DNA from: Alphaproteobacteria bacterium
GTDB lineage: Bacteria > Pseudomonadota > Alphaproteobacteria > Micavibrionales > Micavibrionaceae
Direction of reading: 5' to 3'
Assembly: GCA_020443295.1 (NCBI GenBank)
Contig: JAGRIJ010000049.1
Location: forward strand, 1 to 64,000
Length of the DNA stretch: 64,000 nucleotides
Part shown: positions 17,739 through 33,240 of the stretch, piece by piece
How the letters are laid out: the number at the start of each line of letters is the position of its first letter
How positions within the stretch are numbered: position 1 is the first letter of the stretch
Program-made: the position numbers and the translations under genes
The notes under the pieces: generated by a model
Seen by the model: only the letters and a program-made list of their open reading frames with translations
Told to the model about the DNA's origin: nothing
The model's database searches: none

Positions 17739-18427
17739 GATGCAACGCCCCCTGTGAAAACGCCGCTCAGCATATCACGTTTTCGCCCAAAGCCCTGCAC
17801 CTTGTGGACCTCGAACCCCGCCGCCTGCAACCCGCGCCGCACTTCGCCCGCCGCTGTAAACGTCGCAAAGCTTGTCCCGGCATGACTGAGCCGCGCCATC
17901 TGCGCGAAAACATCCGCCGTCCACATCTCCGGATTGCTCGCCGGCTTGAACCCGTCCAGAAACCACGCATCCACACGCGCCTCGATCTTCGGCAGAACCT
18001 CCGCCACATCCCCGATATAAAGCGTCAGACGCACATCCTCCGCCGCATCAATCACATGCATCCCCGTCTTCGGCACGGGATATAAATCGCAAAAGCGCAT
18101 CAACAAATCACCAAATTCATCCTGCCAGCCGGATAAAACATCTTTTATAAAACCGCTATTTACCGGATATTTCTCAACCGAGATAAATTCGAGCCGTCGC
18201 GGATTATTTTGCACACGCAGACGGCTCCATAACTCCCACGCGGCCAGAAAATTCAGCCCCGTCCCGAACCCCGTCTCTGCGATCGTAAAAGTCTCCCGGA
18301 AATCGCGATCCTCCCACCGCGCCGTCAACGAATTCCCCTCCAGAAAAACGTGCAGCGTCTCCGCCAGCCCGTCTTCGGCGGAAAAATATACATCGTCAAA
18401 ACGCTCTGACCTTGGCACACTTTTCAT
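17735..18427 (-). CDS. tRNA nm5U34 methyltransferase (MnmD type, N-terminal half of MnmC)
   Basis: The 230-residue protein opens with RFDDVYFSAEDGLAETLHVFL and contains FTIAETGFGTGLNFLAAWEL, the S-adenosylmethionine-binding loop, and AWFLDGFKPASNPEMW, the typical MnmD/MnmC catalytic segment. It methylates nm5U at tRNA position 34. A longer start at 18469 would overlap the upstream gene, but the ATG at 18427 follows GGACAGG and begins at the conserved region. It is coupled to the oxidoreductase by an ATGA overlap, so the pair probably acts as a split MnmC. Confidence 0.87.
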   Translation of the reverse strand: MKSVPRSERFDDVYFSAEDGLAETLHVFLEGNSLTARWEDRDFRETFTIAETGFGTGLNFLAAWELWSRLRVQNNPRRLEFISVEKYPVNSGFIKDVLSGWQDEFGDLLMRFCDLYPVPKTGMHVIDAAEDVRLTLYIGDVAEVLPKIEARVDAWFLDGFKPASNPEMWTADVFAQMARLSHAGTSFATFTAAGEVRRGLQAAGFEVHKVQGFGRKRDMLSGVFTGGVAS

Positions 18428-18440
18428 CAGCAACCCTGTC

Positions 18441-19184
18441 CTACAAAAGCCCTTTAGTTTTTTTCCCATAGCGTAATAAACACCTCTTGCGCGTCCACAG
18501 TCCTAAAGCTTTTAAAACACGCACAGAAACACAATCCTCCAAATCACAATCTGACCTGTAATAGCAATCCCAATAACTAATAACGCGCTGCTCCAAAAGA
18601 TCGCGGAAAGCTTCATTTTCACTCATAAACTTCTGTACACTTTCGACGTTGATCTGTCCTATGTTCTGAAAAATAACCTCATTGATTTCACTAACATACT
18701 CCCCGACAAGTGCAAGAACATAAGGCAAAACCCACTCATCCTTGGCACCCATCAATTGCCGCAAATATTTCTGGCGAACAAACCCATCATAATTGCGCGT
18801 ATAGATACAGCAAAGAATAGCTCTCTGCCGTTCGTTCAGAGAAAGTAAGTCGCCGTCGTCAAGATCGGGGAAATACAAACGGTAAGGAACCCTTACGTCC
18901 TCCCCGTTCACTCTGAAAGGCGAAGCGCTCACATTATAGCCATCCTGTTTAGGCAAATATGCAAATACGCTTTCAGGATACAAAGCGTCCCAAGCATTAA
19001 GTAATTCCTGAACCTGATACCCACCCCGAACAACAACAGGCGAGGCTTGGTAAGCATCATCAGAACGTATTTGCCGCAACCAGACGTCCAGCACATCTTC
19101 GCGCAGATCTTGAGGAAACGCACAGACCAACTTGGCCAAAGTGCTGCGTGTGCTGTCTGCAAGTTTAATAGAAAAATCTTTCAT
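18441..19184 (-). CDS. Hypothetical protein (247 aa), soluble
   Basis: I do not recognise the family. The protein is acidic and helical, without a signal peptide or membrane segment, and contains two short Cys clusters (AILCCIYTRN and YYRSDCDLEDCV). Its coding GC is visibly lower than that of the flanking mnmD and M3 genes. I chose the ATG at 19184 because GGAG sits six bases upstream, within the first codons of the longer reading that starts at 19196. It shares a strand with mnmD, and its end overlaps any longer form of mnmD, so it may be co-transcribed. Confidence 0.6.
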   Translation of the reverse strand: MKDFSIKLADSTRSTLAKLVCAFPQDLREDVLDVWLRQIRSDDAYQASPVVVRGGYQVQELLNAWDALYPESVFAYLPKQDGYNVSASPFRVNGEDVRVPYRLYFPDLDDGDLLSLNERQRAILCCIYTRNYDGFVRQKYLRQLMGAKDEWVLPYVLALVGEYVSEINEVIFQNIGQINVESVQKFMSENEAFRDLLEQRVISYWDCYYRSDCDLEDCVSVRVLKALGLWTRKRCLLRYGKKTKGLL

Positions 19185-19345
19185 GTTTTTCTCCATTACA
19201 TTACAACGGGAAAAGCGCTAAACTCAGCCAACGCCTTCCTTTTCCCGTGTACGGAGAAAAGGAGCGAAAGTAACAAAAATGCCTTGGCTTTGTCAAAAAT
19301 TATCGTATCAATCCTTTATCAGCGTTTCTTAACAGGGGTTTCCCG

Positions 19346-21403
19346 ATGTCGAATAATCCTCTTCTAGAAAAATCCGCCCTCCCCAATCAGGCCCCGCCCT
19401 TCGACCGGATCAAGACGGAACATTACCTCCCCGGCCTGAAGGCGGGAATAGAGGAGGCGCGCACGAACATCGAGAAAATAAAGAAAAACAAGGCCGAGCC
19501 GGATTTCGAAAACACGCTGGTCGCCCTCGAAACCGCCTCCGAAACGATAGATCAGGTCACCGCCGCCTTCTATAACCAACTCTCCGCGACCGGCGGAGAC
19601 GAACTGCACGCGCTGGCCGCCGAAATAGGGCCGTTGGGCGCGAAATTCTCCAACGACGTGATCTTGGACGCCAAGCTCTTCAAGCGCGTCGATGAGGTCT
19701 ATGAAAAGCGCGAAAGCCTCAACCTCACCCCCGAGCAGAAGACCCTGCTGGAGGAAACATGGAAGGGCTTCGTGCGCGGCGGCGCCAAGCTCAGCAAAAA
19801 GAAAAAGGAGCGCCTTCGCGAAATATCCGAACGCCTCTCCACCCTCACCCCCGCCTTCATGCAGAATACGGTCAAGGCGACGGAAGCGTTCGAACTCCTC
19901 ATCGACGACGAAAAGGACCTCTCCGGCCTCCCCGACAGCGCCATCGAAAGCGCCGCCCACGCCGCCGAGGAAAAGGGCTGCGCGGGCAAGTGGCTCTTCA
20001 CGCTCGATTACCCCAGCTTCGGCCCCTTCCTGCAATACGCCGACAACCGCGAATTGCGCGAGAAAATCTGGCGCGCCAACGCGTCCAAGGCATGGAAAGA
20101 TCAATATGACAACTCCGCCATCATCCTCGAAATCGTCAGGCTGAAACGCGAACGCGCGAAACTTCTGGGCTACAAGACCCACGCGCACTACGTTCTCGAA
20201 GAACGCATGGCCAAATCCCCCGACGAAGTCCTCGCCTTCCTGAAAAAGCTCAAGAAGGTCTACAAACCCGCCGCGAAAAAGGACCTCGCCAAGCTCAAGA
20301 AATACGCCGCCAAGGAACACGGGCTGGCAGAACTCATGCCGTGGGATGTCGGCTACTACTCCGAAAAGCTCCGCAAGAAACTCTTCGACTTCACCTCCGA
20401 GGATTTCCGCCCCTACTACTCGCTCGAAAAGGTGCTCACCGGCTGCTTCGATCATTTCAGCAAGCTCTTCGGCATCAAATTCGTGAAGACCGAAGGCAAA
20501 TACCCGCTCTGGCACAAGGACGCGCAGGTCTTCGACGTAGTCAACAGCGCAGACGGCGCCTTCGTGGGCACCTTCTTTGCCGATTTCCACCCCCGCACCG
20601 GGAAAAATCAGGGCGCATGGATGACCACCTATAGAAATCAGGGCCTCTGGAGAGGCAAGGTCGAACGCCCCGTGGTGGCCATCGTCTGCAACTTCACCAA
20701 ACCGACGAAGGATAAACCCTCCCTCCTCACACATGGCGAGGTCACAACGCTTTACCACGAAATGGGCCACGCCATCCACGGCCTGCTCTCGAACGTCACA
20801 TACCGCGCGCTGGCCGGAACCAACGTGCGCTGGGACTTTGTGGAACTGCCCTCCCAGTTGCAGGAAAACTGGTGCTACGAAAAATCCGTGCTGGATACGT
20901 TTGCCGAACATTACCAGACGGGCGAAAAAATCCCCGCCAGGCTGGTGGAGAAACTGAACAAGGCCCAGAATTTCATGGTCGGCTGGGGCGGTTTAAGGCA
21001 AATGAGCCTCGCCCAGCTGGACATGGCCTGGCACACCAAAAACCCGGAGAAAATTACGGACGTGGCGGAATTCGAAGACGCCGCGATCAAGGATTGCGCC
21101 CTCTTCCCGCGCCTCGCCGGGCCGGTCTCCACCTCCTTCGGCCACATCTTCGCCGGGGGATATTCGGCGGGGTATTACAGCTATAAATGGGCCGAAGTGC
21201 TGGATGCCGACACGTTCGAACTATTCAAGGAAAAGGGATTGTATGACACCGCCAGCGCACAAGCCTACCGCAAGCTTCTGGCCAGCGGCGGCTCCGAAGA
21301 TCCGGCGGTGCTCTATCGCAATTTCCGTGGCCGCGACGCCGACCCCGACGCCCTGCTCCGCCGCGAAGGCCTCCTAAAGGCGGAGAAAAAGAAAGCGGCT
21401 TAG
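19346..21403 (+). CDS. M3-family zinc oligopeptidase (Dcp/OpdA type)
   Basis: The 685-residue enzyme carries YHEMGHAIHGLLS at about residues 470-482: zinc ligands His471 and His475 with catalytic Glu472. The downstream third-ligand helix and the substrate-binding FAGGYSAGYYSYKWAE near the C-terminus complete the M3 fold. Such enzymes cleave short peptides, as peptidyl-dipeptidase Dcp or oligopeptidase A. Length matches the family's 680-690 residues. No signal peptide is visible, so it is probably cytoplasmic. The sequence does not separate Dcp from OpdA. Confidence 0.94.
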   Translation: MSNNPLLEKSALPNQAPPFDRIKTEHYLPGLKAGIEEARTNIEKIKKNKAEPDFENTLVALETASETIDQVTAAFYNQLSATGGDELHALAAEIGPLGAKFSNDVILDAKLFKRVDEVYEKRESLNLTPEQKTLLEETWKGFVRGGAKLSKKKKERLREISERLSTLTPAFMQNTVKATEAFELLIDDEKDLSGLPDSAIESAAHAAEEKGCAGKWLFTLDYPSFGPFLQYADNRELREKIWRANASKAWKDQYDNSAIILEIVRLKRERAKLLGYKTHAHYVLEERMAKSPDEVLAFLKKLKKVYKPAAKKDLAKLKKYAAKEHGLAELMPWDVGYYSEKLRKKLFDFTSEDFRPYYSLEKVLTGCFDHFSKLFGIKFVKTEGKYPLWHKDAQVFDVVNSADGAFVGTFFADFHPRTGKNQGAWMTTYRNQGLWRGKVERPVVAIVCNFTKPTKDKPSLLTHGEVTTLYHEMGHAIHGLLSNVTYRALAGTNVRWDFVELPSQLQENWCYEKSVLDTFAEHYQTGEKIPARLVEKLNKAQNFMVGWGGLRQMSLAQLDMAWHTKNPEKITDVAEFEDAAIKDCALFPRLAGPVSTSFGHIFAGGYSAGYYSYKWAEVLDADTFELFKEKGLYDTASAQAYRKLLASGGSEDPAVLYRNFRGRDADPDALLRREGLLKAEKKKAA

Positions 21404-21405
21404 AT

Positions 21406-22092
21406 ATGAGAAACGCGATAAAACTGATATCGCTTCTTTTGTGCTGCGTGAGCCTGTCGGGTTGTGTTGGCTGCCCTGTGCCACAAACAAGTTATAGAAC
21501 CACCCCTTCAATCGCCCTTAAAAATAACCGGATTAAATTTTCCGGTTATAAAATTACCGACGACATTCGGGGAGCAACACCCACAGAAGAAAAAGTAATA
21601 TTTGAAACCCTGTACATCACTCATCTTGCCGTGACCGACTGGGATAGTCACACCCAAAACCCGTTTACATGGCAACCGCTTTGGGAACTAACCAGCAAGG
21701 CCTACCGCGACCCGGATGCGTTACAAGGGCTAAGGTTAGAAAGAGGTAAAAAGAAAAGTGACGTAGTATACATCAAACTCCCAGAAGAAATTACCTACGG
21801 AGAGCCAATAAAAGGAATGGATGTTGTTGCGCCGCCTATGAATCTGCGTGAGAACGTCAGGTACAGGCTGAACATGGTTATATATGGCGAAAAAGAGGGC
21901 GAGATTTTTTATGTAAGGGGCCATAAAAATTTCATACTAAGGAACGAAAACGGCGTTTTGGCAATCGAAGAACCCTCAGACTTGGATTACTACAATCATA
22001 TGATGGAACAACAAAAGGCTCTACCCTCATGCTCCGTGCCTGAAAAATCGGAAAGTTGCGGAAAATGCGCTGTTCAAAAACCACAAAAATAA
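21406..22092 (+). CDS. Lipoprotein of unknown function
   Basis: This 228-residue protein has a lipoprotein leader with LSGC near residue 20 and a beta-rich mature region. It begins two bases after the oligopeptidase stop, so it probably shares that transcript. It contains no motif I recognise. The last part carries two Cys-containing segments (PSCSVPEKSESCGKC). Codon use is more AT-rich than in the peptidase gene, which suggests a different origin. Confidence 0.68.
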   Translation: MRNAIKLISLLLCCVSLSGCVGCPVPQTSYRTTPSIALKNNRIKFSGYKITDDIRGATPTEEKVIFETLYITHLAVTDWDSHTQNPFTWQPLWELTSKAYRDPDALQGLRLERGKKKSDVVYIKLPEEITYGEPIKGMDVVAPPMNLRENVRYRLNMVIYGEKEGEIFYVRGHKNFILRNENGVLAIEEPSDLDYYNHMMEQQKALPSCSVPEKSESCGKCAVQKPQK

Positions 22093-22349
22093 TTTCGGTT
22101 CTATTGTTTCTCTTCTTCTGTGCCGCCAGCTTTATCGGCGGCGCAATTTTCGGCAAGAAATACGGTTATCAAAACGCCTATAAGCAGGGCTATCTGTCTG
22201 GAAAAATGGATATATTTAATGCCGTTACAAGGGCCACGGGCTATAAAATATCGGAAGCAGAAGACTGCGAACCCATAACCAGCTTCAAGGCAGATGCGAT
22301 TTCTGTTTGCACGATCAATGGTGTGAAGACAATCGCAAAAACGGATTAA
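22065..22349 (+). CDS. Small membrane-anchored protein of unknown function
   Basis: This 94-residue protein has one membrane segment near its start (IISVLLFLFFCAASFIGGAIF), followed by GKKYGYQNAYKQGYLSGK. It begins within the preceding lipoprotein gene; I use the ATG at 22065 with GGAAAG upstream instead of the TTG at 22056. It shares the AT-rich character of its neighbours. The function is unknown. The two cysteines near the C-terminus could form a disulfide if the protein faces the periplasm. Confidence 0.5.
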   Translation: MRCSKTTKIISVLLFLFFCAASFIGGAIFGKKYGYQNAYKQGYLSGKMDIFNAVTRATGYKISEAEDCEPITSFKADAISVCTINGVKTIAKTD

Positions 22350-22360
22350 GCGAAAACGAT

Positions 22361-22624
22361 ATGCCCAATAAACTCAAATCCCGCATTCAACCCGGCGACA
22401 TCTACGAGGATTGCGCTTATCACCCTTGCTTGTGTTTTGGAGTTGATTACGAAGAAGATGACATAGCGGTATGGGGCATTTCTCTAATCGACGGCTCCTA
22501 TCCGCGCTCTTGTAGCTTAAACCACTGCGGCGTAGAAAAAATGACGATGGAACAAGCTTGGAAACGCAAACTCGAATTTGCGGAAGGACGTTTCAAACCA
22601 CCTCCCGAAGATGGCGACAAATAA
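22361..22624 (+). CDS. Small Cys-containing protein of unknown function
   Basis: The 87-residue protein begins MPNKLKSRIQPGDIYEDC and contains a CxC pair (CLC) and further cysteines (RSCSLNHCG). GDIYED, AVWGISLIDGSYPRSCS and MTMEQAWKRKLEF read like a small conserved domain. I chose the ATG at 22361 over a longer frame whose first 18 residues overlap the previous gene. Its neighbours are two further orphan proteins, and all three could be a small accessory unit. The function is unknown. Confidence 0.5.
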   Translation: MPNKLKSRIQPGDIYEDCAYHPCLCFGVDYEEDDIAVWGISLIDGSYPRSCSLNHCGVEKMTMEQAWKRKLEFAEGRFKPPPEDGDK

Positions 22625-22668
22625 TCTTTGACCATATCTATCAACAAGGAAGGATGAAGGAATACCCT

Positions 22669-23409
22669 TTACTTCCTCTCAGCATGTGCCACATCTGCGC
22701 TGTCGCCACATGACTCAACGAAGCTTAAGTCATATTTATTATTTTCTAGATTTGGAACAAGACAGCGGCAAGATGTTAACGCCCCAACGCCCGGTTGCCC
22801 CAATTGAATACAAGGGTGGCTAATTTCATCAATCCAAAAGAGATTTTGACCGGTAGAATCAAAATCAAAGACATATTTTTTGTTGTCGTCTTCCACTAAA
22901 AATATGGGCTCATCAAAGTCCCAACCGATAAAAAACCAGACAACCACCATATCTTCGCGGGAAAGCTTTCTTATTTTGAAGTTTTTGCCGATTTTTATAT
23001 GTTCACTAAGAAGTTCCGCTAAAAGCTTACGCTGTTTTGTGGCACTGGCTGCATAATTCTGGCTAACAATTGTTAGGCCTGACAGAGGAGTGTTCAATTT
23101 TATGCAAGTCAATATTTTCAGGATTTCCTTAGGGACATTACTCATCAGTTTGCTAGATAAAAACGTACCTACATACGAAAGGGTTTCCATCTCAGGCGGC
23201 AACAGACTTTGAAAGCTTACGGAATCCCCCTCTAACGCTTTTCTCAGTTTTTCTTCGGCTTTAATGTTAATTTCATCAGAAGCTTCTTTGTATACGATAC
23301 CTTCTGGTACATTCATCTTTTCGTTAGCAAAACCATGTGAACTATCGAAAAGCACGACTAGTAGAAGAAAAAAACAGAATATAATTTGATAAATATTAAA
23401 AGGGCGCAT
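22669..23409 (-). CDS. Secreted or membrane-anchored hypothetical protein (246 aa)
   Basis: An N-terminal hydrophobic stretch (YQIIFCFFLLLVVLFDSSHGF, ending about residue 27) is a probable signal peptide. The mature protein has no motif I recognise and ends in a Cys-containing segment. The ATG at 23409 is preceded by AGAAGAG. Base composition is AT-rich, like the adjacent small genes. Upstream on the minus strand is an AT-rich promoter-like region. Function is unknown. Confidence 0.6.
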   Translation of the reverse strand: MRPFNIYQIIFCFFLLLVVLFDSSHGFANEKMNVPEGIVYKEASDEINIKAEEKLRKALEGDSVSFQSLLPPEMETLSYVGTFLSSKLMSNVPKEILKILTCIKLNTPLSGLTIVSQNYAASATKQRKLLAELLSEHIKIGKNFKIRKLSREDMVVVWFFIGWDFDEPIFLVEDDNKKYVFDFDSTGQNLFWIDEISHPCIQLGQPGVGALTSCRCLVPNLENNKYDLSFVESCGDSADVAHAERK

Positions 23410-23513
23410 CAACTCTTCTCTGATTATGATCGCGTCACTTTAACATATCACGAGAGAAAAAATCTAAACGGCATTTTTGCCTCCCATCGCCAAACGCGCT
23501 ATACTCACCCCAT

Positions 23514-23535
23514 AAAGGGCGCGGTGCGCCTTTTT
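23514..23535 (+). terminator. Strong hairpin with T tract in an intergenic region
   Basis: GGCGC (23518-23522) pairs with GCGCC (23526-23530) around a three-base loop, flanked by AAAG and TTTTT that extend the stem. It resembles a Rho-independent terminator on the plus strand, but no annotated plus-strand gene ends close before it. A short untranslated transcript is possible. Confidence 0.5.
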
Positions 23536-23574
23536 GCTTTTGAGGGAAAAGGGCCGCGCAGGCCAAAGCCCGGT

Positions 23575-23674
23575 GACTAAGTCCGCAACGCACCCCCGTA
23601 AGGAAAAACAACATCTTACACGCCCGCAACCGGACTAACAGGACTTAGTCCACTTAACCGCAACTTAGTCCACT
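23575..23674. repeat. Clustered copies of a GGACTTAGTCC-type element
   Basis: ACTTAGTCCACT occurs exactly twice (23643-23654 and 23663-23674), with a 20-base period. GACTAAGTCC at 23575-23584 is the exact reverse complement of 23641-23650, and GGACTAA occurs at 23632. The cluster sits downstream of the minus-strand secreted protein gene and could form a hairpin or be a protein-binding repeat. Confidence 0.55.
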
Positions 23675-23684
23675 CGCGCCCGCA

Positions 23685-24167
23685 TTAATCGCTCAGCTTC
23701 ACATCCTTGATCAAAACTGCGCCCTTGCCGTTCACCTGCAAATTCAGCGTCACGCGGTCGGGTACCTGCCCTTTCTGCAGCACGAACGGGATCGAAACCG
23801 CCGTCCAGTCCGCATCCCCGGTCACCTGCTGGTCCAGCCCGCGCGAGAAATAGGAGCCCTTGTTCGCCCCGGAGAAATGCACCCACATCTCAAGGAACGC
23901 CGCGCCGTCCAGCCCCTCGGTCTTGAGCTTCGCGGAATATTTGAGCGTCGTCTCCTCCAGCTTTTTCTCCCGCACATCCACATCGGCCAGGTTGACCGCC
24001 GTGGGCGAGGCCGTATCGACGCGGATCGTCCCCGCCTCGGGCTGCGTGATCCGTGTGCCCACCGTCTCGGGGCTCAGCGCGGAACCGGAATACAACTCTT
24101 CGGCCATCGCGGGCGCGCTGAACAGCAAAACCGCGCTGCAGGCCAGAAGCATCAATCGTTTGGACAT
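23685..24167 (-). CDS. Secreted protein, possible carbohydrate-binding-like beta fold
   Basis: A 160-residue protein with a signal peptide ending at about AMAEE. The mature part is beta-rich (TLKYSAKLKTEGLDGAAFLE, MWVHFSGANKG, VTLNLQVNGKGAVLIKDVKL). The spacing of strands resembles carbohydrate-binding-like or lectin-like domains, but no family is certain. AAGGAG lies six bases before the ATG at 24167. The gene is divergent from the AHL-lactonase-like gene, and both may share the palindrome between them. Confidence 0.6.
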   Translation of the reverse strand: MSKRLMLLACSAVLLFSAPAMAEELYSGSALSPETVGTRITQPEAGTIRVDTASPTAVNLADVDVREKKLEETTLKYSAKLKTEGLDGAAFLEMWVHFSGANKGSYFSRGLDQQVTGDADWTAVSIPFVLQKGQVPDRVTLNLQVNGKGAVLIKDVKLSD

Positions 24168-24199
24168 GGGCATCTCCTTGTGTCAGATTAAGGCGCATT

Positions 24200-24214
24200 G
24201 TAAAGAGTCTTTAC
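24200..24214. promoter_or_regulatory. 15-bp perfect palindrome between divergent secreted-protein genes
   Basis: GTAAAGA-G-TCTTTAC is a perfect inverted repeat with a one-base centre. It lies between the starts of the secreted protein (minus) and the AHL-lactonase-like enzyme (plus). It is a good candidate for a dimeric regulator's operator that could control both. Confidence 0.5.
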
Positions 24215-24222
24215 GCGTATGC

Positions 24223-24260
24223 AAAGATCGACCGCGCAATAAAAGATCGACCGCGCAATA
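24223..24260. repeat. Exact tandem 19-bp repeat upstream of the lactonase-like gene
   Basis: AAAGATCGACCGCGCAATA is present twice without a gap, at 24223-24241 and 24242-24260. The second copy ends 19 bases before the ATG. A tandem operator or a slippage product would both give this pattern. It does not resemble the lux box at 26201. Confidence 0.75.
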
Positions 24261-24279
24261 TAAGAAAATAGGAACCGCC

Positions 24280-25158
24280 ATGAAAAAACTCTTCTCCGCC
24301 CTGCTGACCGCCCTCGCGCTCGCCGCCGTCGCTCCCTCCGCCCACGCGCAGGAGAAAAAAGACGCCAAACCCGCCCCGGAAATACGGCTCTATCACCTTG
24401 ATTGCGGCAACATCACGGTAACCGACCTGAACGTCTTTTCCGATACGGACGCCTATATCGGCAAGAGCAAGGATCTGGTGGCTTCCTGCTACCTCATCAA
24501 GCACGGCGAAGACTGGCTTCTCTGGGACACGGGCCTGCCCGCATCCACCCCCAGGCTTGCCGACGTCACCACGCGCCCCTTCATCCTCTCGCTGCAGGAA
24601 ACCATTCCCGAACAGCTCAAAAAACTCGACCTGAAGCCAGAGGATATTGATTACATCGGCATCTCGCACGGCCATTTCGACCACACAGGACAGGCAAACG
24701 CCTTCCCTAACGCCAGGCTCATCATCCAGCAGGCCGAATACGATTTCATGACCGGCCAGACTGAAACCGCCATGAACTATCACATGCCCGCAGAAGCGAT
24801 TGCGAACTATGTCGGCGAAGCCGCAAAGGAAAAGCGCATGCTGCTTTCCGGCGACACGAATATTTACGGAGACGGTACGCCCAAGCCCATATCGCTGCCC
24901 GGCCACACCCCCGGCCGTATGGCGCTGCTGGTAGTCCTGCCGAAAACCGGCCCCGTCGTTCTTTCAGGCGACCAGTGGCATTTCGAGGAGAACCGCAAGT
25001 GGAACGGCGTCCCGTCCTTTAACTACAACCGGGCGGATACGCTGGCTTCCTCGGACAAGCTGAACAAGCTCATCAAAAACCGCCACGCCCGGATCATTAT
25101 CCAGCACGACCCCCTGGACAACGCGAAGCTTCCCGCTCTGCCGGAATACCTTAATTGA
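24280..25158 (+). CDS. Exported AHL-lactonase-like metallo-beta-lactamase-fold hydrolase
   Basis: A 292-residue protein with a signal peptide (cleavage near SAHA-QE) and a di-metal metallo-beta-lactamase core. HGHFDH supplies His130, His132, Asp134 and His135; the remaining ligands fit at His209 (PGHTPG), Asp231 (SGDQWH) and His276 (IIIQHD). The 22- and 45-residue spacings are almost those of AiiA (22 and 44), a quorum-quenching lactonase that opens the homoserine-lactone ring. It lies beside luxI and luxR. Family and context support an AHL lactonase, but other lactones remain possible. The export signal would place it in the periplasm or outside. The start at 24280 is preferred to a frame extending to 23860 because it begins at the signal peptide. 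Confidence 0.82.
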   Translation: MKKLFSALLTALALAAVAPSAHAQEKKDAKPAPEIRLYHLDCGNITVTDLNVFSDTDAYIGKSKDLVASCYLIKHGEDWLLWDTGLPASTPRLADVTTRPFILSLQETIPEQLKKLDLKPEDIDYIGISHGHFDHTGQANAFPNARLIIQQAEYDFMTGQTETAMNYHMPAEAIANYVGEAAKEKRMLLSGDTNIYGDGTPKPISLPGHTPGRMALLVVLPKTGPVVLSGDQWHFEENRKWNGVPSFNYNRADTLASSDKLNKLIKNRHARIIIQHDPLDNAKLPALPEYLN

Positions 25159-25194
25159 AAGGCTTTAAAGCGCAAAACGGGATGAAAAAGCGAT

Positions 25195-25503
25195 CTATAG
25201 ATCGCCCACTTCTGCTTCAGCGCGTTCAAGGAACTCTGAAATATCACGGTACTGATCTGCCGGAATCCGCGAGAGAAGATTCATAAAAGCCAGAACCTTG
25301 AGCGTATCGCTGTTAATCATGATATCGGCAAAATTGCCCCGCTTGTTTTTGACGATATCCTCAACCCGGGCGATGGCCGTAAGGATCGCGTTCGAGACAT
25401 CGTCAAACCCCGCCCGCTTGGACTCCTGCGAAAGATAGTAAAGCGAGGCAATAATGGGGCGAAGTTGCTCTTTGTTCATAGGTTCTGTCGAAGTGTCGGT
25501 CAT
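25195..25503 (-). CDS. Small protein cotranscribed with luxI, unknown function
   Basis: The 102-residue acidic helical protein begins MTDTSTEPMNKEQLRPIIAS and has no membrane segment. Its ATG is 10 bases after the luxI stop, with AGAGAGG upstream, so it is probably made from the luxI transcript. It contains a predicted helical pair (SLYYLSQESKRAGFDDVSNAIL and LKVLAFMNLLSRIPADQY). I do not recognise a family; a role in regulating or tuning the signal system is an inference from location alone. Confidence 0.65.
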   Translation of the reverse strand: MTDTSTEPMNKEQLRPIIASLYYLSQESKRAGFDDVSNAILTAIARVEDIVKNKRGNFADIMINSDTLKVLAFMNLLSRIPADQYRDISEFLERAEAEVGDL

Positions 25504-25513
25504 AAGCGCCTCT

Positions 25514-26152
25514 CTATGCTGCAATGGCTTCTTTTTCTGCATTTCCAAAATTCAGAACGGGTTCGTGGATTCCTGTGATCTTCCTCACCCTGTTCAGAAC
25601 CTCCTGCGTAACGACAAGGTTCCCGGCAATAATCTTGTGCCCCTCCTCGCTCCTGTGGATCTCGCCCATCCACTCGACATCCCACCCGGAATTAACGAAA
25701 ATATTTCTCCAGTACGGCGGGTACATGACACCAATAATGCTCTTGATATTCTTCATCAGGGAAAACTCGAGATAGCCGATGACGATTTCCTGGATGATCC
25801 TTTTACGCATCTCCGGAGCAACCGATTTTTCAACGCAAAAACGGCTGCCCTCCCATACCCGCGCCGTGCTGGGCAGTTCGGTCTTGCTCACAAGATGGGC
25901 AAACGATTGCTGCAGCATATAAGGCCGGTCCGTCGGATAAAGACGTGAGACACCTATGGCTCTTCCTGCCGCATCCTTTTTGACAAGATAATAGGCGGCG
26001 GGATTGTCATAGCCGTCATACTCCATATCCTCCACCGTCGGGATTTCCCAGCCCTGACGCTGAATGATACTCTGATACCTCAACTGGTGTTGCCGGTAGA
26101 TCGGGTTGTAATCGAAATGATGGTTTGTACTCAGAGTCACACAATCAATCAT
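25514..26152 (-). CDS. LuxI-family acyl-homoserine-lactone synthase
   Basis: LuxI enzymes join S-adenosylmethionine and an acyl chain to make the diffusible signal. The 212-residue protein shows the invariant set with a one-residue offset: Arg25 (RYQ), Trp35, Asp46 and Asp49 (EYDGYD), Arg70 (VSR), and Glu101 and Arg104 (WEGSRF). RBS GGAGG lies just before the ATG. A near-perfect inverted repeat sits about 50 bases upstream and should bind the neighbouring LuxR protein. The acyl chain length cannot be told from sequence. Confidence 0.95.
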   Translation of the reverse strand: MIDCVTLSTNHHFDYNPIYRQHQLRYQSIIQRQGWEIPTVEDMEYDGYDNPAAYYLVKKDAAGRAIGVSRLYPTDRPYMLQQSFAHLVSKTELPSTARVWEGSRFCVEKSVAPEMRKRIIQEIVIGYLEFSLMKNIKSIIGVMYPPYWRNIFVNSGWDVEWMGEIHRSEEGHKIIAGNLVVTQEVLNRVRKITGIHEPVLNFGNAEKEAIAA

Positions 26153-26200
26153 GCTCTCCTCCCGGACTAAAAAAATCTGGGATCAGAAAAACAGGAAATG

Positions 26201-26223
26201 ACTTGTGGTTGTACCTGACAAGT
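26201..26223 (-). promoter_or_regulatory. Lux-box-like operator for luxI
   Basis: ACTTGT (26201-26206) and ACAAGT (26218-26223) form a perfect 6-base inverted repeat separated by 11 bases. The total, 23 bases, is slightly longer than the usual 20-base lux box. It ends about 49 bases before the luxI start, in the right place to recruit polymerase. Confidence 0.72.
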
Positions 26224-26253
26224 TCATTAGGCTAAGCGAAAATTAGGGACTAT

Positions 26254-27003
26254 TTATATTCTCTCGGAAACCGCGCTGGGCATGATCAGCCCAAGCCGAA
26301 TAGCCTTGGTGACGGCAAAAATTCTCTCATTGGAATGCAGTTTTTTATAGGAATTATTGATATGAAACCGAACGGTGGAATAGGAAATTCCAAGGATATC
26401 GGCAATAACCGCATCGCTTTTTCCTTCCGCGGCCCATAATAAAACCTCGCGCTCCCGGTCAGTCAGGAAAATGCCGCCCCCCGGCTCTTCTTCCGCTCTC
26501 AGCATCTCCGTATAAGCCATATGGAACTGGAAGCACAGGGTGCGAATCTTGGCCATCACGACCTCGTTCAATTCAACGCCGCCCGCGCTGCTCGCCATAC
26601 CCACGCCGGACAACTCGCCGTTCATCCCGTGGATGGGAACCGCCATGCCGTCCATTAATTTCGCTTCATGAGCCTCATCCATAATACGCTTCTGGAAGGC
26701 ACTGATTTTCTGGTTTTGCGTGACATACTTCCAGGTAAAAGGGCGGGTCGTTTTAAAACAATGAAGCGGCACGGGATCCCTGCCGACATATTGGCTGGAG
26801 ACATAATGTTTCATCCAGCTTTCAGGGTAATTCCTGAGCAGACCATGTCCGGCTTTCAAATTCAGGGAATCATGGTCGGAAATAAGGCTGTAGCAAAAGC
26901 GGTCATAGCCGAACTGAGCAAGCGCGTCCCCCAAGAGGGACGAGAGTTCTTCAATTGAGCAGGACTCGTTTGACTGCTCTATGAATTCTTCTATAGAGAC
27001 CAT
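26254..27003 (-). CDS. LuxR-family autoinducer receptor/regulator
   Basis: The 249-residue protein has an N-terminal autoinducer-binding domain and a C-terminal GerE helix-turn-helix (ILTDREREVLLWAAEGKSD-type, about 179-235). The binding-pocket residues are kept: Trp63, Tyr67, Asp76, Pro77 and Trp91, which correspond to the TraR set. It lies directly upstream of luxI on the same strand, separated by the lux box. In response to acyl-homoserine lactone it should activate luxI and other targets. Confidence 0.94.
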   Translation of the reverse strand: MVSIEEFIEQSNESCSIEELSSLLGDALAQFGYDRFCYSLISDHDSLNLKAGHGLLRNYPESWMKHYVSSQYVGRDPVPLHCFKTTRPFTWKYVTQNQKISAFQKRIMDEAHEAKLMDGMAVPIHGMNGELSGVGMASSAGGVELNEVVMAKIRTLCFQFHMAYTEMLRAEEEPGGGIFLTDREREVLLWAAEGKSDAVIADILGISYSTVRFHINNSYKKLHSNERIFAVTKAIRLGLIMPSAVSERI

Positions 27004-27061
27004 GAACGCCGTTCTGTTTTCTGAACATCGGCGAAATTATATTTCATTACTTCAGATAAAT

Positions 27062-27454
27062 CTAGCTTTTGTTCCTCAAAGACAAGGATTTTAAAAATAA
27101 CAAAAGCTTCTTCTTCACATCCTGATCTTCAATGGAATTCAACAGCCCGACAATCTGCATCGTGATGCGGTCGACCCGGTTTAAATTCGCGGAACGCCTG
27201 TGATGCTGGGCGCCTTCATCGTCGTAAAGCCCGTCATAGAAATTCATCAGATTGCAATCCAGAACCTTGGCCGCATCATAAAGCCGGGAAGCGCTCACGC
27301 GGTTCTTGCCCTGCTCGTACTTCTGGACCTGCTGGAACGTAATATCCAGGGCTTCAGCCAGTTCAACCTGCGATAAACCTCTGGTTTTTCTGATAAGACG
27401 CAGATTTGTACCGATAACTGCATCCACATCGTTTGGTTTTGGTTTAGTTTTCAT
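27062..27454 (-). CDS. XRE-family helix-turn-helix regulator
   Basis: The 130-residue protein has a Cro/C1-type helix-turn-helix at about residues 12-66 (LRLIRKTRGLSQVELAEAL and ITFQQVQKYEQGKNRVSA). This is the family type common in alphaproteobacteria. The C-terminal part is helical, with an EDQDVKKKLLLF segment. I use the ATG at 27454 rather than a frame starting at 27508. It lies upstream of luxR on the same strand and may control the quorum system, but this is inferred. Confidence 0.85.
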   Translation of the reverse strand: MKTKPKPNDVDAVIGTNLRLIRKTRGLSQVELAEALDITFQQVQKYEQGKNRVSASRLYDAAKVLDCNLMNFYDGLYDDEGAQHHRRSANLNRVDRITMQIVGLLNSIEDQDVKKKLLLFLKSLSLRNKS

Positions 27455-27513
27455 TGTACTTGCGCTACTCTCTGCTAAACAGGGATAAAGAAAAACAGAG
27501 TTAAGCACAAAAA

Positions 27514-27627
27514 ATGAATTTCATCAATTTTCACATAAGCAAGCCCATACCCACAGCTTCAAACGACAACCTGCCGGACGAAGAATGGGAACAGGAGATG
27601 CCCGATATGCTGCTCTCGTATTTCTGA
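27514..27627 (+). CDS. Possible 37-aa small protein
   Basis: An ATG at 27514 opens 37 codons ending TGA at 27627, translating to an acidic peptide with DNLPDEEWEQEMPDMLL in the middle. It is divergent from the XRE gene, whose start is 60 bases away, and lies in otherwise empty DNA. The codons look reasonable and the C-terminal half is amphipathic, but no strong ribosome-binding site is visible. It is too short to call firmly. Confidence 0.35.
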   Translation: MNFINFHISKPIPTASNDNLPDEEWEQEMPDMLLSYF

Positions 27628-27669
27628 GCATCGGGAACATATACTTTTGATAGAATCACAGACCCGTCA

Positions 27670-28563
27670 CTAAAAAAGCTCCATCAGCATGCACCGGGCC
27701 GACCCGCCGCCGTATTTCTCCAGCGTAGGCAAAGGACTGCTGATGATTTTCGAGAAACGCCGCCCGATAGCATCAAGCTGCGCCTCGTTAAGCGCCTCCC
27801 GCGCGGCAGCGGACAGGGTGAGCATCCGCGTCCCCTCATACCCGATCACTTCCAGAGCGTTTCCGCAATTCGCACGCAACTGCTCCATCGAAAACTCGAC
27901 CACCTCATGCGTGCCTTTCAGCTTTCTGTGCACCTGTTCCCGGTATTCCGGCAGAAGGCAGTCAGTGCACAGCCCCGCCATCTCGGTACCGATCCACATC
28001 AGGTAATCGGTGTGATAGACGGGAATGCCTGTATGGCTCTCCGTCTCGAACATCACAGCCTCGTACCCCATGAAACCCGCCCATTTCTTTACAAGGTCCG
28101 GGTGCGTGCGCTTGGACAGCGCGGCATAGGCGATTTTATGGACGTGATCGGCCACGATGCTCGCCGTGCTTTCAAGATATTGCCCGTCCTTCTCATAACC
28201 GCTCCAATCGATCACGTCAGGATAGGTCTTTTTCAGCATGTCGATAATATCGGGCCGCCGCTCCTTCTGGCGGTTCTCGCTGAGCATGGGATAAAGGATC
28301 ATGCGCCCGTCATCGTAAACCGACGCCCAGTTGGGAAAAACCATATCCGGCGAACCCTTATGGCCGATGGCCGTTGTCACCATCACGCCGTTTTCAACCA
28401 GCGCATCGCGGTAGTCGCGGAACTCGCGGACCGCTGCCGCCGATATCGCCCGGCGAGGCGCATCGTCTCCCTCTGCCTGATACGCATTTGTTTCAACGGT
28501 TTCAGGATTCGTATAAAATTCTGCGGGTTCGATCATCAGAAGATGATCCGTGGATTGTCTCAT
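27670..28563 (-). CDS. CtlX-like guanidino hydrolase (arginine deiminase-related)
   Basis: The 297-residue protein has the fold and motifs of the amidinotransferase/arginine-deiminase superfamily: MIEPAEFYTNPET near the start, HTDYLMWIG with His-x-Asp, and EKYGGGSARCMLMELF at the end, where Cys291 is the expected nucleophile. GGGSxRC is characteristic of the CtlX group, named for citrulline utilisation. Its substrate is not certain; candidates are citrulline or methylated arginines. AGGGAC precedes the ATG, and the gene is divergent from rlmJ. Confidence 0.82.
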   Translation of the reverse strand: MRQSTDHLLMIEPAEFYTNPETVETNAYQAEGDDAPRRAISAAAVREFRDYRDALVENGVMVTTAIGHKGSPDMVFPNWASVYDDGRMILYPMLSENRQKERRPDIIDMLKKTYPDVIDWSGYEKDGQYLESTASIVADHVHKIAYAALSKRTHPDLVKKWAGFMGYEAVMFETESHTGIPVYHTDYLMWIGTEMAGLCTDCLLPEYREQVHRKLKGTHEVVEFSMEQLRANCGNALEVIGYEGTRMLTLSAAAREALNEAQLDAIGRRFSKIISSPLPTLEKYGGGSARCMLMELF

Positions 28564-28680
28564 GGCATGTCCCTGAAGAATAACTCTGCTGAAGACAGCA
28601 TAGGAAAAGATAGTTAAAACTATGCCAAAATAGACGACATAAAGCCAGAGGATGGCAGGGAAAATTAGGGAAAACTCACG

Positions 28681-29493
28681 ATGTTGTCATATCAGCATAT
28701 CTATCATGCGGGCTGCCTCCCCGATATCCACAAGCACATGGTGCTGGCCGAGATCTTCGATCTCATGGCCAAAAAGTTCAAACCCATGACTTACGTCGAA
28801 ACCCATGCCGGACGCGGATATTACGACCTTAACGCCCCTGAGGCCTCTAAAACCGGGGAAGCTGCGGAAGGCATCCTGAGAATGCTGAAGGAAAACTGGT
28901 TCCAGCCCACCCGGCCTTTTATGAAAGTGCTCAAAGACACGCAACGCCGCAAGGGGGGGCAGTATTACCCCGGCTCCGCCGCGATTGCGGAATACTACCG
29001 CAGTCCCGGAGATAAAATGCACCTCATGGAGCTTCACCCCGGTGAAATCAGATACCTGCAGGGATCGTTTAAAAGCTCGGCCATACATATCCAGCAAAAG
29101 GACGGTTATCAGGCCCTGCTGACGCTGGCACCGCCGGAACCCAGGCGGGGCTTGGTCTTTATCGACCCGAGTTACGAAATCAAGACGGAATATGACGACA
29201 TGCCCGGATTCGTTGCAAAACTGATGAAAAAATGGGCTGTTCCGACGCTCTGCATCTGGTACCCGCTTTTACCTTCGCTCGCCCATGTGAACATGGTTAA
29301 AAAACTCTACGCTCTCAACCTTCCCAAGTCCGGTGTCTTTCAGGTCGAGTTCTGTCCCCGGCCCGAACGGGGGGACGGCTGGAAAGCTCTTTATGGCAGC
29401 GGATTGTTTATCGCCAACATCCCCTTCGGTCTGGAACAAAGGGTCGAGGAAATCCAGCGCAGACTCAGGGGAATAAAGAAAACAGAGGAATAA
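28681..29493 (+). CDS. rlmJ: 23S rRNA m6A2030 methyltransferase RlmJ
   Basis: The 270-residue enzyme starts MLSYQHIYHAGCLPDIHKH, the typical opening of RlmJ, and contains VETHAGRGYYDL and FIDPSYEIKTEYD. The second is the catalytic DPPY-type motif, with Ser in place of the second Pro. RlmJ methylates N6 of A2030 in 23S rRNA using S-adenosylmethionine. The overall length and the conserved N-terminus match. It is monocistronic and divergent from the CtlX-like gene. Confidence 0.94.
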   Translation: MLSYQHIYHAGCLPDIHKHMVLAEIFDLMAKKFKPMTYVETHAGRGYYDLNAPEASKTGEAAEGILRMLKENWFQPTRPFMKVLKDTQRRKGGQYYPGSAAIAEYYRSPGDKMHLMELHPGEIRYLQGSFKSSAIHIQQKDGYQALLTLAPPEPRRGLVFIDPSYEIKTEYDDMPGFVAKLMKKWAVPTLCIWYPLLPSLAHVNMVKKLYALNLPKSGVFQVEFCPRPERGDGWKALYGSGLFIANIPFGLEQRVEEIQRRLRGIKKTEE

Positions 29494-29623
29494 ATTCCCC
29501 TTTTTTCAGATTAAGCAGTTTTTGCACACGAAGCGCCAGTTATGCTAAGTTTGACAGAAGGCGCAGGGAACACTAAAAGCGCGAAAATGTCCCTGCCGTA
29601 ATAATTCTAAGGGTGAGCGAACG

Positions 29624-30538
29624 GTGGTCCGTCAGAGTTTTAACAATCAGAGCTATTGGCTCATATTCCTGCAGTGGCTGCTCAAGGATATTCAGACCAA
29701 AGAGCAGGAACACGTCGCCGCGGATAGTGATGGTGCGGATAGTGACGGTGCGGACGGCCCCGAAGAAGATGGCTCCCCCGGCGATGAACACGACGGGTCT
29801 GAAGAAGAATCGAAAACGCGCCTTGCCGGTCCGGGAGGAAATATTTCACAAGCGTTCCTGGCAGCCCTTGTAACGCCAGGCGCAACAGAAGCTCAAACAG
29901 GCGGCGAACACACCGAAACAATCACGTTGCCTCAAGCCGACCGCGAACATCCGGCAACCGCCGTTAATCATACCTTACAGGCGCCCCACTCCACCGCTGT
30001 CTTCTGGGGCGATTCAATCGCGCACGGCATGGCAACCTCCGTACGGCCCGGAACCTTTGCCAATGTCGTAAACCTCGCAACGCCCGGCGCAGGATTTCTG
30101 ACATCCATAAAACCTCAATCGATCGGAACTCTGCCCCAAAACTCCGCCGCGTTTATTTATTTCGGAACCAATGATGTCGCCTCCCTGATCGGCCAGTCGG
30201 ACGAACAGATCGCAGCCTACGCAAGGCGCGTAATAGATCAGGCAGAACAGATGAAAGCACAGGGCGCTGACGTGGTCATACTGGGATTGAACGCCCCCAA
30301 AGGCGCCTACACGGGGGGCAGCGCCGTCTGGCGTCAGGAAGGCTTCGTCGAACGCTGGACATCCACGATGGAACGCCTGAACGAACAATACAGGGTTCAG
30401 GCAGAGGCGGCAGGCATCCGCTACGCCGCGACAGACGCACAGATCACGAATGATGAAATCAGCAGCGATAACCTCCACCTCACAACTGCCGGAAACCGCG
30501 AACTGGTGAGCATCGGCACACAAGCTTTAAAGTCGTGA
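29624..30538 (+). CDS. SGNH/GDSL hydrolase with acidic N-terminal segment
   Basis: The 304-residue protein contains the four SGNH blocks: FWGDSIAHG (Ser), an intervening Gly, YFGTNDVAS (Asn) and DNLHLTTAG (Asp, His). These hydrolases cleave esters, often acyl or acetyl groups on lipids or polysaccharides. Residues about 30-65 are an Asp/Gly-rich low-complexity stretch with a repeated DSDGAD unit. The start is a GTG. No signal peptide is visible, although the acidic repeat and linker resemble secreted toxins or adhesins. The substrate is unknown. Confidence 0.75.
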   Translation: MVRQSFNNQSYWLIFLQWLLKDIQTKEQEHVAADSDGADSDGADGPEEDGSPGDEHDGSEEESKTRLAGPGGNISQAFLAALVTPGATEAQTGGEHTETITLPQADREHPATAVNHTLQAPHSTAVFWGDSIAHGMATSVRPGTFANVVNLATPGAGFLTSIKPQSIGTLPQNSAAFIYFGTNDVASLIGQSDEQIAAYARRVIDQAEQMKAQGADVVILGLNAPKGAYTGGSAVWRQEGFVERWTSTMERLNEQYRVQAEAAGIRYAATDAQITNDEISSDNLHLTTAGNRELVSIGTQALKS

Positions 30539-30545
30539 CGGGATT

Positions 30546-31403
30546 ATGCTTAAAGACAAACTGAACGCATTTTTTACCAAATACCCAGTTAACTCCCCGG
30601 ATATCATAGTTTCGCTTGCACAGATGACAAGCGGTGCAACTATAGAAGCCACCAACGCCGTGCTGGACTTTACTGAACGATACAAAACCAAGATCAGCGG
30701 TGCGCTTTCAGCGGTCAGCGGTTTGGCCCTTGCCGCTGAGGGGATACGTTCGCATAACCCTGTTCTGATCACATCAGCCGTGGTTGCCTTGAGTGCCGAT
30801 ACGATTTTGATCCGCTATGGCGATCCTGTCCGCGGCAGGAACGAACACAACCCCCAGGACAAGGAATTTGAATGGAAAGACTCCTTGAATTTCAGGAACT
30901 ATCCGCATGAAACCTCCACTATAGGATATACGCTCGGAAGCGCTATAATGGCCGCCGCCGATTTGGCGGGCGGGCAAATCAATACCTCGATGGGGTATCT
31001 GGCGGCTGGCGCAACGGACCTGATGGGAAGCGCCATCACGTTTTTCGTACGCGAAAAAAAGGAAGCCACTGACAAATTCAAGAACGCCGTGCTGAACATC
31101 CCGGGAATCAAGCAAATCGCCAATCTGGCCGAAACGCGCACAAACCTTGCTGCCGGTCTGGTTTCCGTAACCGGTTTGGGATACATGACAATTACGGATC
31201 TGGCCAAGCATAACTGGAGCATAGAAACCAGCGCCCCGATCCTGACCTTTACCGTGGCCACTCTGGGATCAGAGGTCGTATACTGGTTTGCGGAAAAACG
31301 GGGACACGTCCGGGAGGAACTGGAAGCCAAAGCCGCTGAAACGGCCGCTAAACAACAAGAAATCGCCGCCGATGAGCCCGGAATGGCATCGGATATGTCC
31401 TGA
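30546..31403 (+). CDS. Multi-pass membrane protein of unknown function
   Basis: This 285-residue protein has about six hydrophobic segments, including ISGALSAVSGLALAAEG and APILTFTVATLGSEVVYWF, and an Ala/Glu-rich cytoplasmic tail. It begins 7 bases after the SGNH hydrolase stop with GACGGGATT upstream, so the two are probably cotranscribed. I do not recognise a family. It could serve as a membrane partner or immunity-type protein for the hydrolase, but that is only a contextual guess. Confidence 0.68.
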   Translation: MLKDKLNAFFTKYPVNSPDIIVSLAQMTSGATIEATNAVLDFTERYKTKISGALSAVSGLALAAEGIRSHNPVLITSAVVALSADTILIRYGDPVRGRNEHNPQDKEFEWKDSLNFRNYPHETSTIGYTLGSAIMAAADLAGGQINTSMGYLAAGATDLMGSAITFFVREKKEATDKFKNAVLNIPGIKQIANLAETRTNLAAGLVSVTGLGYMTITDLAKHNWSIETSAPILTFTVATLGSEVVYWFAEKRGHVREELEAKAAETAAKQQEIAADEPGMASDMS

Positions 31404-32264
31404 TCACTCCAGCCCCTGATCCTTAAGCCGCCAGCGCCAGAGCCGCCGCAACGTCCCCACATCGCTCCACGGCACGTTAAGCTCCCGCGCAAAATACGAA
31501 GTCGCCTTTTCCATCACGGCGTAATCGACGGAGAGCGGTTCTATTTCTGAGAAAAATTTTTTATCCGGCTGGATAAAATGACCTTTTTCGGCGCGCCCCT
31601 CATACGCAAGCTGCGCCATTTCGAAAATGCCCGGCGAGGCGCGCTCCAGCTGCTGCAAAAAAACGCTGGGCCGGGAAAGAAACATCCCCGTATTCCAGAG
31701 ACAATTCCCAAGAGAAAGCAGCATCTCCGCTTTCTTCTCATCCGGCTTCTCGACAAACTGTTTGACGGGACGGCACGCGGTCTCCCCCGGCTCAAGCATG
31801 ATATACCCGTAATCCGTTTCCGCTGCCGTGGGCGTAACGCCCAGCAGGACCATATTTTCGATCGTATAGGCGATGGACTCCACCACCGCCTTCTCGAACG
31901 CCCGGATATTTTTCATACTGTGATCGCTCGGCAGGACGAGCATCAGCGACCCTTGTCCTTTAAGAAAAAACGCGGCCATGGCGATCGCCGCCGCCGTGTT
32001 CCGGTGATCAGGCTCAAGGATAATCGCCCGCGGCTCCACCTTCACCCGCGCCAGATGATCTTTGACAAGGCCCCTGTAGCTGTGATGACAGACAATGATC
32101 GGCGGCGCAAAGGACCGGACGCGCAGCACCGTACGCTGAAAAAAGGAAAGGCCGCTATTCAGGGAAAGAAAAGGCTTGGGCCGCTTGGGACTGGTCAGGG
32201 GCCACAGGCGCCTGCCCTGTCCCCCGGCAAGAATGACGGGCACGATCTCAGGCCGCGAGGTCAT
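31404..32264 (-). CDS. manC: Mannose-1-phosphate guanylyltransferase (ManC-type)
   Basis: The enzyme makes GDP-mannose. The 286-residue protein begins with the nucleotidyltransferase signature PVILAGGQGRRLWPLTSPKRPKPFL and includes FVEKPDEKKAEMLL. It lacks the C-terminal isomerase half of bifunctional ManC, so it is a stand-alone guanylyltransferase. AGGGGGCGG precedes the ATG at 32264; 32285 is another candidate, and either start overlaps the end of fcl. The gene closes the gmd-fcl-manC operon. Confidence 0.9.
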   Translation of the reverse strand: MTSRPEIVPVILAGGQGRRLWPLTSPKRPKPFLSLNSGLSFFQRTVLRVRSFAPPIIVCHHSYRGLVKDHLARVKVEPRAIILEPDHRNTAAAIAMAAFFLKGQGSLMLVLPSDHSMKNIRAFEKAVVESIAYTIENMVLLGVTPTAAETDYGYIMLEPGETACRPVKQFVEKPDEKKAEMLLSLGNCLWNTGMFLSRPSVFLQQLERASPGIFEMAQLAYEGRAEKGHFIQPDKKFFSEIEPLSVDYAVMEKATSYFARELNVPWSDVGTLRRLWRWRLKDQGLE

Positions 32265-33240
32265 CCGCCCCCTGATCCTGCGCACACCCCTTCAGGCGCG
32301 AAAGATAATCCGCGTACGCCTTCCCCAGCCCCTCATCAAGAGAAACCCGGGGCCGCCATCCCGCCGAAAAAATCCGTGAACTGTCCATAACCTTACGAAG
32401 TACACCTTCAGGCTTGGAAGAGTCAAATTCAATTGCCGCAGGACATCCCACGCAATCGGCTATTATTTCAGCCAATTCAGAAATGGAGATCTCCACCCCG
32501 CTGCCCACATTGATCGCCCCCGCCCCGTTATAATGCGTAAGTAAAAACACCAGCGCATCCGCCAGATCGTCGACATAGAGAAATTCCCTCAACGCCCGCC
32601 CGCTGCCCCAAACACGCATAGGCTTGCCCGAACGCTTGGCCTCATGAGCCCTCATCAGCAGCGCCGGAATAACATGCGAGCGCGTCTGATCGTAATGATC
32701 CCCCGGCCCGTAAAGATTGCACGGCATGGCGGAAATAAAATCGCAGCCATATTGCCGCCGGTAATAGGCACACATCTTCACCCCGGCAATTTTCACCAGC
32801 GCGTACGCCTCGTTGGTCGGCTCAAGAGACGCGCTCAGCAACGCCTCCTCCCGGATCGGCACGACCGCCTCGCGCGGATAAATGCACGAGGAACCGAGAT
32901 ACAAAAGCCGCTCGACGCCGTTCAGATAGGCCGAATGAATGACGTTCGTAGTGATCGCAAGATTATCGTAAAAGAATTCCCCCGGATGCAGGGAATTATC
33001 AAGAATGCCGCCCACCCGCGCCGCCGCGAGAAGGATAACCTCTGGCTTGTGCGCCTCCATCCAGTCCTGCACCGCCCGCTGATCCCGTAAATCCAGATCG
33101 CGGCGGGAAACAGAAAGCAGGGTGACATGTTCCGAAGCAAGCCGCCGCACCGCCGCCGATCCGACCATCCCGGTTTCCCCGGCCACCCAGACCCGCTTGC
33201 CCGCAAGCGCGAACGGAACGCTCAGCCAGTCATCTTCCAT
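32248..33240 (-). CDS. fcl: GDP-L-fucose synthase
   Basis: The 330-residue short-chain dehydrogenase/epimerase converts GDP-4-keto-6-deoxymannose to GDP-L-fucose. It has the NADP-binding VWVAGETGMVGSAAVRRL, the catalytic Ser segment YLGSSCIYP, and YALVKIAG, which supplies the Tyr-x-x-x-Lys pair. GGGGGAG precedes the ATG. Its start overlaps the end of gmd, and its end overlaps the start of manC, so the three genes are translated as a unit. Confidence 0.94.
   Translation of the reverse strand: MEDDWLSVPFALAGKRVWVAGETGMVGSAAVRRLASEHVTLLSVSRRDLDLRDQRAVQDWMEAHKPEVILLAAARVGGILDNSLHPGEFFYDNLAITTNVIHSAYLNGVERLLYLGSSCIYPREAVVPIREEALLSASLEPTNEAYALVKIAGVKMCAYYRRQYGCDFISAMPCNLYGPGDHYDQTRSHVIPALLMRAHEAKRSGKPMRVWGSGRALREFLYVDDLADALVFLLTHYNGAGAINVGSGVEISISELAEIIADCVGCPAAIEFDSSKPEGVLRKVMDSSRIFSAGWRPRVSLDEGLGKAYADYLSRLKGCAQDQGADDLAA

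Follow-up and report, generated by a model that had tools for sequence, protein, structure and literature searches.

A PraR-like gene and a CinS/MmaP-like small ORF in a luxR-luxI operon of an alphaproteobacterium, beside a probably unrelated exported enzyme of the AHL lactonase family

Behind the luxI gene of an alphaproteobacterium of the family Micavibrionaceae lies a small ORF that belongs to a conserved, coding and so far uncatalogued family, whose members adjoin luxI in many alphaproteobacterial lineages. In the stretch of DNA that we analysed (64,000 nucleotides of contig JAGRIJ010000049.1, hereafter the window), this ORF is the last gene of a quorum-sensing operon with the order praR-like xre, luxR, luxI and small ORF. 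Our preferred reading, to which we give a probability of about 0.6, is that the small protein would act on a PraR-type XRE regulator in the manner of CinS and MmaP, while an exported MBL-fold enzyme encoded nearby would be a neighbour moved in by rearrangement.

The window contains a complete LuxR-LuxI pair with a lux box, as an earlier, sequence-only reading had stated, and all three elements are where that reading placed them. The luxI gene (25514-26152, minus strand) encodes a protein of 212 amino acids with a Pfam Autoind_synth match (2.4e-25), and luxR (26254-27003, minus strand) encodes one of 249 amino acids with Autoind_bind (2.6e-28) and GerE (8.6e-15) matches. When compared with solved structures, LuxI matches LasI (2.6e-18) and LuxR matches LasR and RhlR. 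The conserved residues of LuxI are present (Arg, Trp, Asp, Asp, Arg, Phe, Glu and Arg); the equivalent of Phe28, a conserved Phe in LasI, is an Ile, which is typical of this LuxI clade. LuxR has the ligand-pocket residues W63, Y67, D76, P77, W91 and G119. Judged by its domain and residues, the luxI product is an AHL synthase of the LuxI type, and it is predicted to produce an AHL.

The lux box (CCTAATGAACTTGTCAGGT, 26213-26231, minus strand) lies between luxR and luxI. The best support for it, at the sequence level, is that two genomes of another genus (L013 and L014) have a near-identical 19-base element in the equivalent position ahead of luxI, where it reads CCTGATGAACTTGT(C/T)AGGT. At the stringency used, this is the only credible lux box genome-wide: a second lux-box-like site has three mismatches, which is the control level. 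The scan relied on a strict pattern, partly derived from the 26213-26231 site itself, and allowed at most 3 mismatches of 19. A single credible lux box fits an output that passes through protein contact, even though the scan was strict.

Two other sets of loci in our survey deserve mention. Another LuxI group of the same bacterial family (L002, L004, L008, L011, L015 and L017-L020) adjoins, by eye, a phytanoyl-CoA dioxygenase-like gene, and L002 and L004 present a short XRE gene after the small ORF. Weak PF00765 matches of about 290 amino acids were found beside secretion-adaptor-like genes in L024-L026 and L029; these are probably other GNAT-type acyltransferases rather than AHL synthases.

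Two genes conserved with luxRI had been overlooked in the sequence-only reading, namely the small ORF after luxI and an XRE regulator. The small ORF (25195-25503, minus strand, 102 amino acids) is read in the same direction as luxI; 10 bases separate its start from the luxI stop, and an in-frame start further upstream overlaps luxI. We annotated its product as a CinS/MmaP-like small protein from a held-out profile and from its luxI-adjacent position. A comparable ORF of 55 to 121 codons is found directly after luxI at nearly every LuxI locus of the order, often overlapping the luxI stop, and small ORFs follow luxI at many LuxI loci elsewhere in the class. Those of the order have a common core, I..L.YL..EA...G...V..IL..A. 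We left the window's sequence and its two closest relatives out of a profile of luxI-adjacent small ORFs, and this profile detected the window's ORF at 3e-7 among 8937 ORFs; only other ORFs adjoining luxI scored better, and the majority of these were in the training set. When every clade was withheld in its turn, 28 of the 34 members were recovered at E < 0.03 (8937 ORFs), and three failed.

Are these ORFs translated? Close relatives of the small ORF display dN/dS values of 0.02-0.25, with differences mostly at third codon positions, which argues that the luxI-adjacent small ORFs are real proteins. A search of Pfam and NCBIfam with the family returned no match above cut-off. For the window's small protein, a single-sequence structure prediction yields helices throughout, with a confidence (mean pLDDT 61) too low to base a search for similar folds on it. 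Compared with the short members of its family, this protein has about 45 extra residues at its C-terminus.

The first gene of the operon (27062-27454, minus strand) encodes a PraR/CdxA-like XRE regulator of 130 amino acids (HTH_3, 2.5e-13). It matches a PraR-family profile, whose training set includes its own copy, over the full length and with the C-terminal region aligned in register. Is this gene the PraR of the genome? The praR-metK-trmB neighbourhood is occupied by another gene, not by the operon XRE: the gene there, immediately ahead of metK and trmB, is the ancestral PraR/CdxA gene (L138, 4871-5449; G000:C45, about 19370-19949), an arrangement known from reports on other Alphaproteobacteria. 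Since the true PraR sits there, we regard the operon XRE as a paralogue. A third PraR-like gene is found at G000:C12:72447-72779. The operon XRE has 36% overall identity with the metK-linked PraR, and direct searches give 41-48% identity with the genome's two other PraR-like proteins.

PraR-like genes occur within 1.5 kb of luxI at 13 of 34 loci in the order and 5 of 29 in the class, and we found none in about 30 control loci of similar size, which were not chosen by an XRE match. Most luxI loci have no XRE alongside. In the class as a whole, PraR-type genes are near-universal (143 of 190 genomes). The full order XRE-luxR-luxI-small ORF recurs in two genomes (G078 and G091) and in one Asticcacaulis plasmid. 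The latter, plasmid pASEM-1 of Asticcacaulis excentricus (L094, NZ_AP018829.1 142457-145491), carries three XRE genes, luxR, luxI and a small ORF of 75 amino acids, followed by traG: here a different order has this operon type on a plasmid.

How might such an operon function? LuxI would make an AHL, and the LuxR-AHL complex would bind the lux box and switch on luxI and, with it, the small gene to which it is coupled. The small protein would then bind or titrate a PraR-type XRE and change the action of this regulator on its target genes; the simplest candidate is the XRE of the same operon, and the ancestral metK-linked PraR may be a further one. In such a scheme, contact between proteins would relay the signal, and not a large set of lux boxes. 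Judging by where its gene lies, its size, its coupling to luxI and the partner that is present, the small protein most likely acts like CinS and MmaP; its target could also be LuxR or something other than an XRE.

It is conceivable, but unlikely, that the small protein acts only on the metK-linked chromosomal PraR and that the operon XRE merely regulates the operon. A true PraR is indeed present in the genome, and the target of MmaP is a PraR whose gene lies elsewhere, next to metK (PMC10790750). However, the presence of a PraR-like gene with luxRI at 13 of the 34 loci of the order suggests a dedicated pair.

We are equally doubtful of a broader idea, in which the luxI-coupled small protein would inhibit PraR-type repressors by mimicking the repressor C-terminal region, and such inhibitors would be a general AHL output across Alphaproteobacteria. 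In some relatives, the C-terminal part of the longer small proteins resembles that of PraR (for example, ILIRYASIEDPVVRKDILGKMM in L083 and LLRNYYSIHDPAMRKMIQKMVKSM in the PraR of this genome). Three related small proteins (L083, L005 and L012) and a fourth (L092) are among the best non-XRE matches to a profile of the PraR C-terminal region, though with E-values of only 0.2-7 (8937 ORFs). When the profiles of the two families are compared, their C-termini align with each other (P 0.006), and the pairwise tests for mimicry give a combined p of only 0.07. As this likeness between the small protein and the XRE is suggestive but not significant, we retain mimicry as a speculative idea only. SinI of Bacillus subtilis is a small anti-repressor that binds the XRE repressor SinR. 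Mimicry by the small protein, if true, would parallel the SinI-SinR pair; the comparison is an analogy only, through a possible likeness of C-terminal regions.

Could the small protein instead be an anti-activator of LuxR similar to TraM, with the XRE gene a separate repressor of the operon? TraM is a small, helical protein, which the 102 amino acids and the predicted all-helical form resemble in a general way, and small ORFs are present at many luxI loci that have no local XRE. However, the Pfam TraM model gives no match to the small protein at E-values up to 10, and we rejected membership in the TraM family on this ground. PraR-type genes, moreover, are nearly universal in the class (in 143 of 190 genomes), and both proteins studied in this position bind PraR (PMC4149787, PMC10790750). 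We therefore consider a LuxR anti-activator quite improbable, and retain CinS/MmaP-like action on a PraR-type XRE as the preferred reading.

The gene that faces the operon (24280-25158, plus strand) encodes a predicted exported MBL-fold protein of 292 amino acids, of the N-acyl homoserine lactonase family (Lactamase_B, 7.4e-20). Its best PDB relatives are AHL lactonases (about 3e-22). The claim that it has all seven metal ligands of these enzymes was borne out by alignment (H130, H132, D134, H135, H209, D231 and H276, the HxHxDH motif included). A signal peptide had also been proposed, and the N-terminus (MKKLFSALLTALALAAVAPSAHA, followed by Q) does read as a Sec signal, as judged by eye. In the phylogeny, the protein clusters with a large group that NCBI names 'N-acyl homoserine lactonase family protein', so that its clade is indeed named after AHL lactonases, but this clade is separate from AiiA and AttM, which group together with 97/89 support. 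Where these two enzymes have an active-site Tyr (Tyr194 in AiiA), three residues after the bridging Asp, the window's protein has His234; His occupies this position in all 17 family sequences compared, and Tyr in the AiiA-like, AttM and 9kho rows. The protein scores far below the cut-offs of the NCBIfam equivalog models for AttM (99.6 bits, cut-off 390) and AiiA (91.9 bits, cut-off 375). A scan of named genomes with the enzyme returned distant MBL proteins only. The MBL fold, the HxHxDH motif, the other three ligands and local similarity are thus common to this enzyme and to AttM and AiiA, whereas its clade stands apart, mostly carries a signal peptide and has His for Tyr. The substrate may be an AHL, another lactone or an ester.

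Do the enzyme and luxI belong together? The distance of 355 bases from luxI to the lactonase-like gene, given in the sequence-only reading, is exact. So is the gap of 36 bases between convergent stops, but the gene that the enzyme gene faces is the small ORF (25195-25503), not luxI. In the order, 11 of 142 genomes have an orthologue of the enzyme and 35 of 142 a LuxI that is clear (at least 57 bits); four genomes have both, versus 2.7 expected (P 0.27). In a sample of the class, where looser similarity was used for the enzyme family, the corresponding counts are 32 and 42 of 385 genomes, with three genomes having both versus 3.5 expected; in the two besides the window's genome, the genes are on different contigs. 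The enzyme is near luxI in the window's genome only, which is one of at least six with both genes. Another genome of the same genus (G020) has a 66% identical enzyme on contig 2 and a LuxI on contig 4, this LuxI being only 26% identical to the window's and hence probably not its orthologue. The surveys of family, order and class led us to reject the lactonase-luxI linkage as a conserved unit: elsewhere, enzyme orthologues are never near luxI (142 genomes of the order, 385 of the class), and they adjoin genes for topoisomerase subunit A, MotAB, aconitase or a symporter, not signalling genes. A lux box at the enzyme gene was likewise rejected, as the strict genome scan found none near it.

Two blocks of G020, about 70 kb apart there, correspond to the window: the first covers it up to about 23.5 kb, apart from a gap of orphan genes, and the second from 27.67 kb. 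The segment between, with the genes for a secreted protein, the enzyme and the quorum-sensing operon, is absent from both places in G020 and from the matching stretches of G019, and it sits at a lineage-specific synteny breakpoint. The GC content is 0.47-0.50 in the operon, 0.58 in the enzyme gene and 0.58-0.62 over the enzyme and secreted protein genes. The breakpoint, the absence from G019 and G020, and the GC contrast together indicate that this neighbourhood is recent and probably mixed in origin.

The divergent secreted protein noted earlier is present (ORF 23685-24167, minus strand, 160 amino acids, signal peptide by eye) and has no match in Pfam. We rejected it as a partner of the enzyme because no homologue was found beside the other copies of the MBL gene; both genes are probably neighbours outside the operon. 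An orphan ORF (22669-23412) with a GC content of 0.39, against 0.54 for the window, lies next to the synteny breakpoint. A block that is conserved in G019 and G020 has its edge at a citrulline-utilisation hydrolase (CtlX)/DDAH-type gene (27670-28563), which lies just upstream of the operon and in the same orientation. An Rfam search of positions 18000-34000 returned no RNA.

A functional pairing of luxI with the exported lactonase, in which the organism would make its own signal and clear it at the cell surface or in the periplasm, is very unlikely: the 355-base proximity, the convergent arrangement, the lactonase-type ligands and the predicted export signal favour it, as do Agrobacterium, Shewanella and Acinetobacter, AHL producers described as degrading their own AHLs (PMC6146095), but linkage in one of at least six genomes, co-occurrence at chance level, the lack of a lux box by the enzyme gene, its differing GC content, orthologues beside housekeeping genes (topoisomerase subunit A, motAB, aconitase), and a position outside the AiiA/AttM clade with His for Tyr all argue against it. 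The apparent quenching pair most likely reflects chance placement, and the enzyme is most likely an unrelated neighbour, which would be an independently inherited secreted hydrolase brought here by rearrangement. Of the earlier interpretation, the quorum-sensing module and the enzyme family named after AHL lactonases stand, and the functional pairing falls.

Our survey thus removes a false lead, because conservation of the quorum-sensing system does not extend to the lactonase-type enzyme beside it. The main interest, in our view, is how widespread and uncatalogued the luxI-coupled small protein family is: the papers that we located on small proteins behind luxI cover only two genera. In some lineages, the operon of the small protein also includes its probable target regulator. 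This raises a testable question: does AHL signalling in this class usually proceed via a protein that disarms a regulator of the PraR type, and not via LuxR at many promoters?

In Rhizobium leguminosarum, CinS is cotranscribed with cinI, binds PraR and lifts PraR repression (PMC4149787). The CinR-CinI-CinS/PraR system (PMC4149787, PMC5977203) resembles the model proposed here in that LuxR governs the joint expression of the AHL synthase and a small protein; the partner of that protein is a PraR-type XRE, and an XRE would play the same part in the window. Unlike the Rhizobium system, the window's operon is headed by a PraR-like gene, and a second PraR lies beside metK. In the MmaR-MmaI-MmaP system of Methylobacterium fujisawaense, the 59-amino-acid MmaP is encoded directly after mmaI, as the window's small ORF is after luxI, is cotranscribed with it and binds PraR (PMC10790750). 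The neighbours of the Methylobacterium PraR gene are metK and a tRNA methyltransferase gene (PMC10790750), as they are for the true PraR gene of this genome. MmaP is shorter than the window's protein, and its PraR is reported beside metK, not within the Mma operon. The likeness of the small protein to CinS and MmaP is one of position, size and partner, not of sequence. By this analogy, the window's operon is most likely a variant of the CinS/MmaP-PraR kind, with a PraR-like gene inside the operon.
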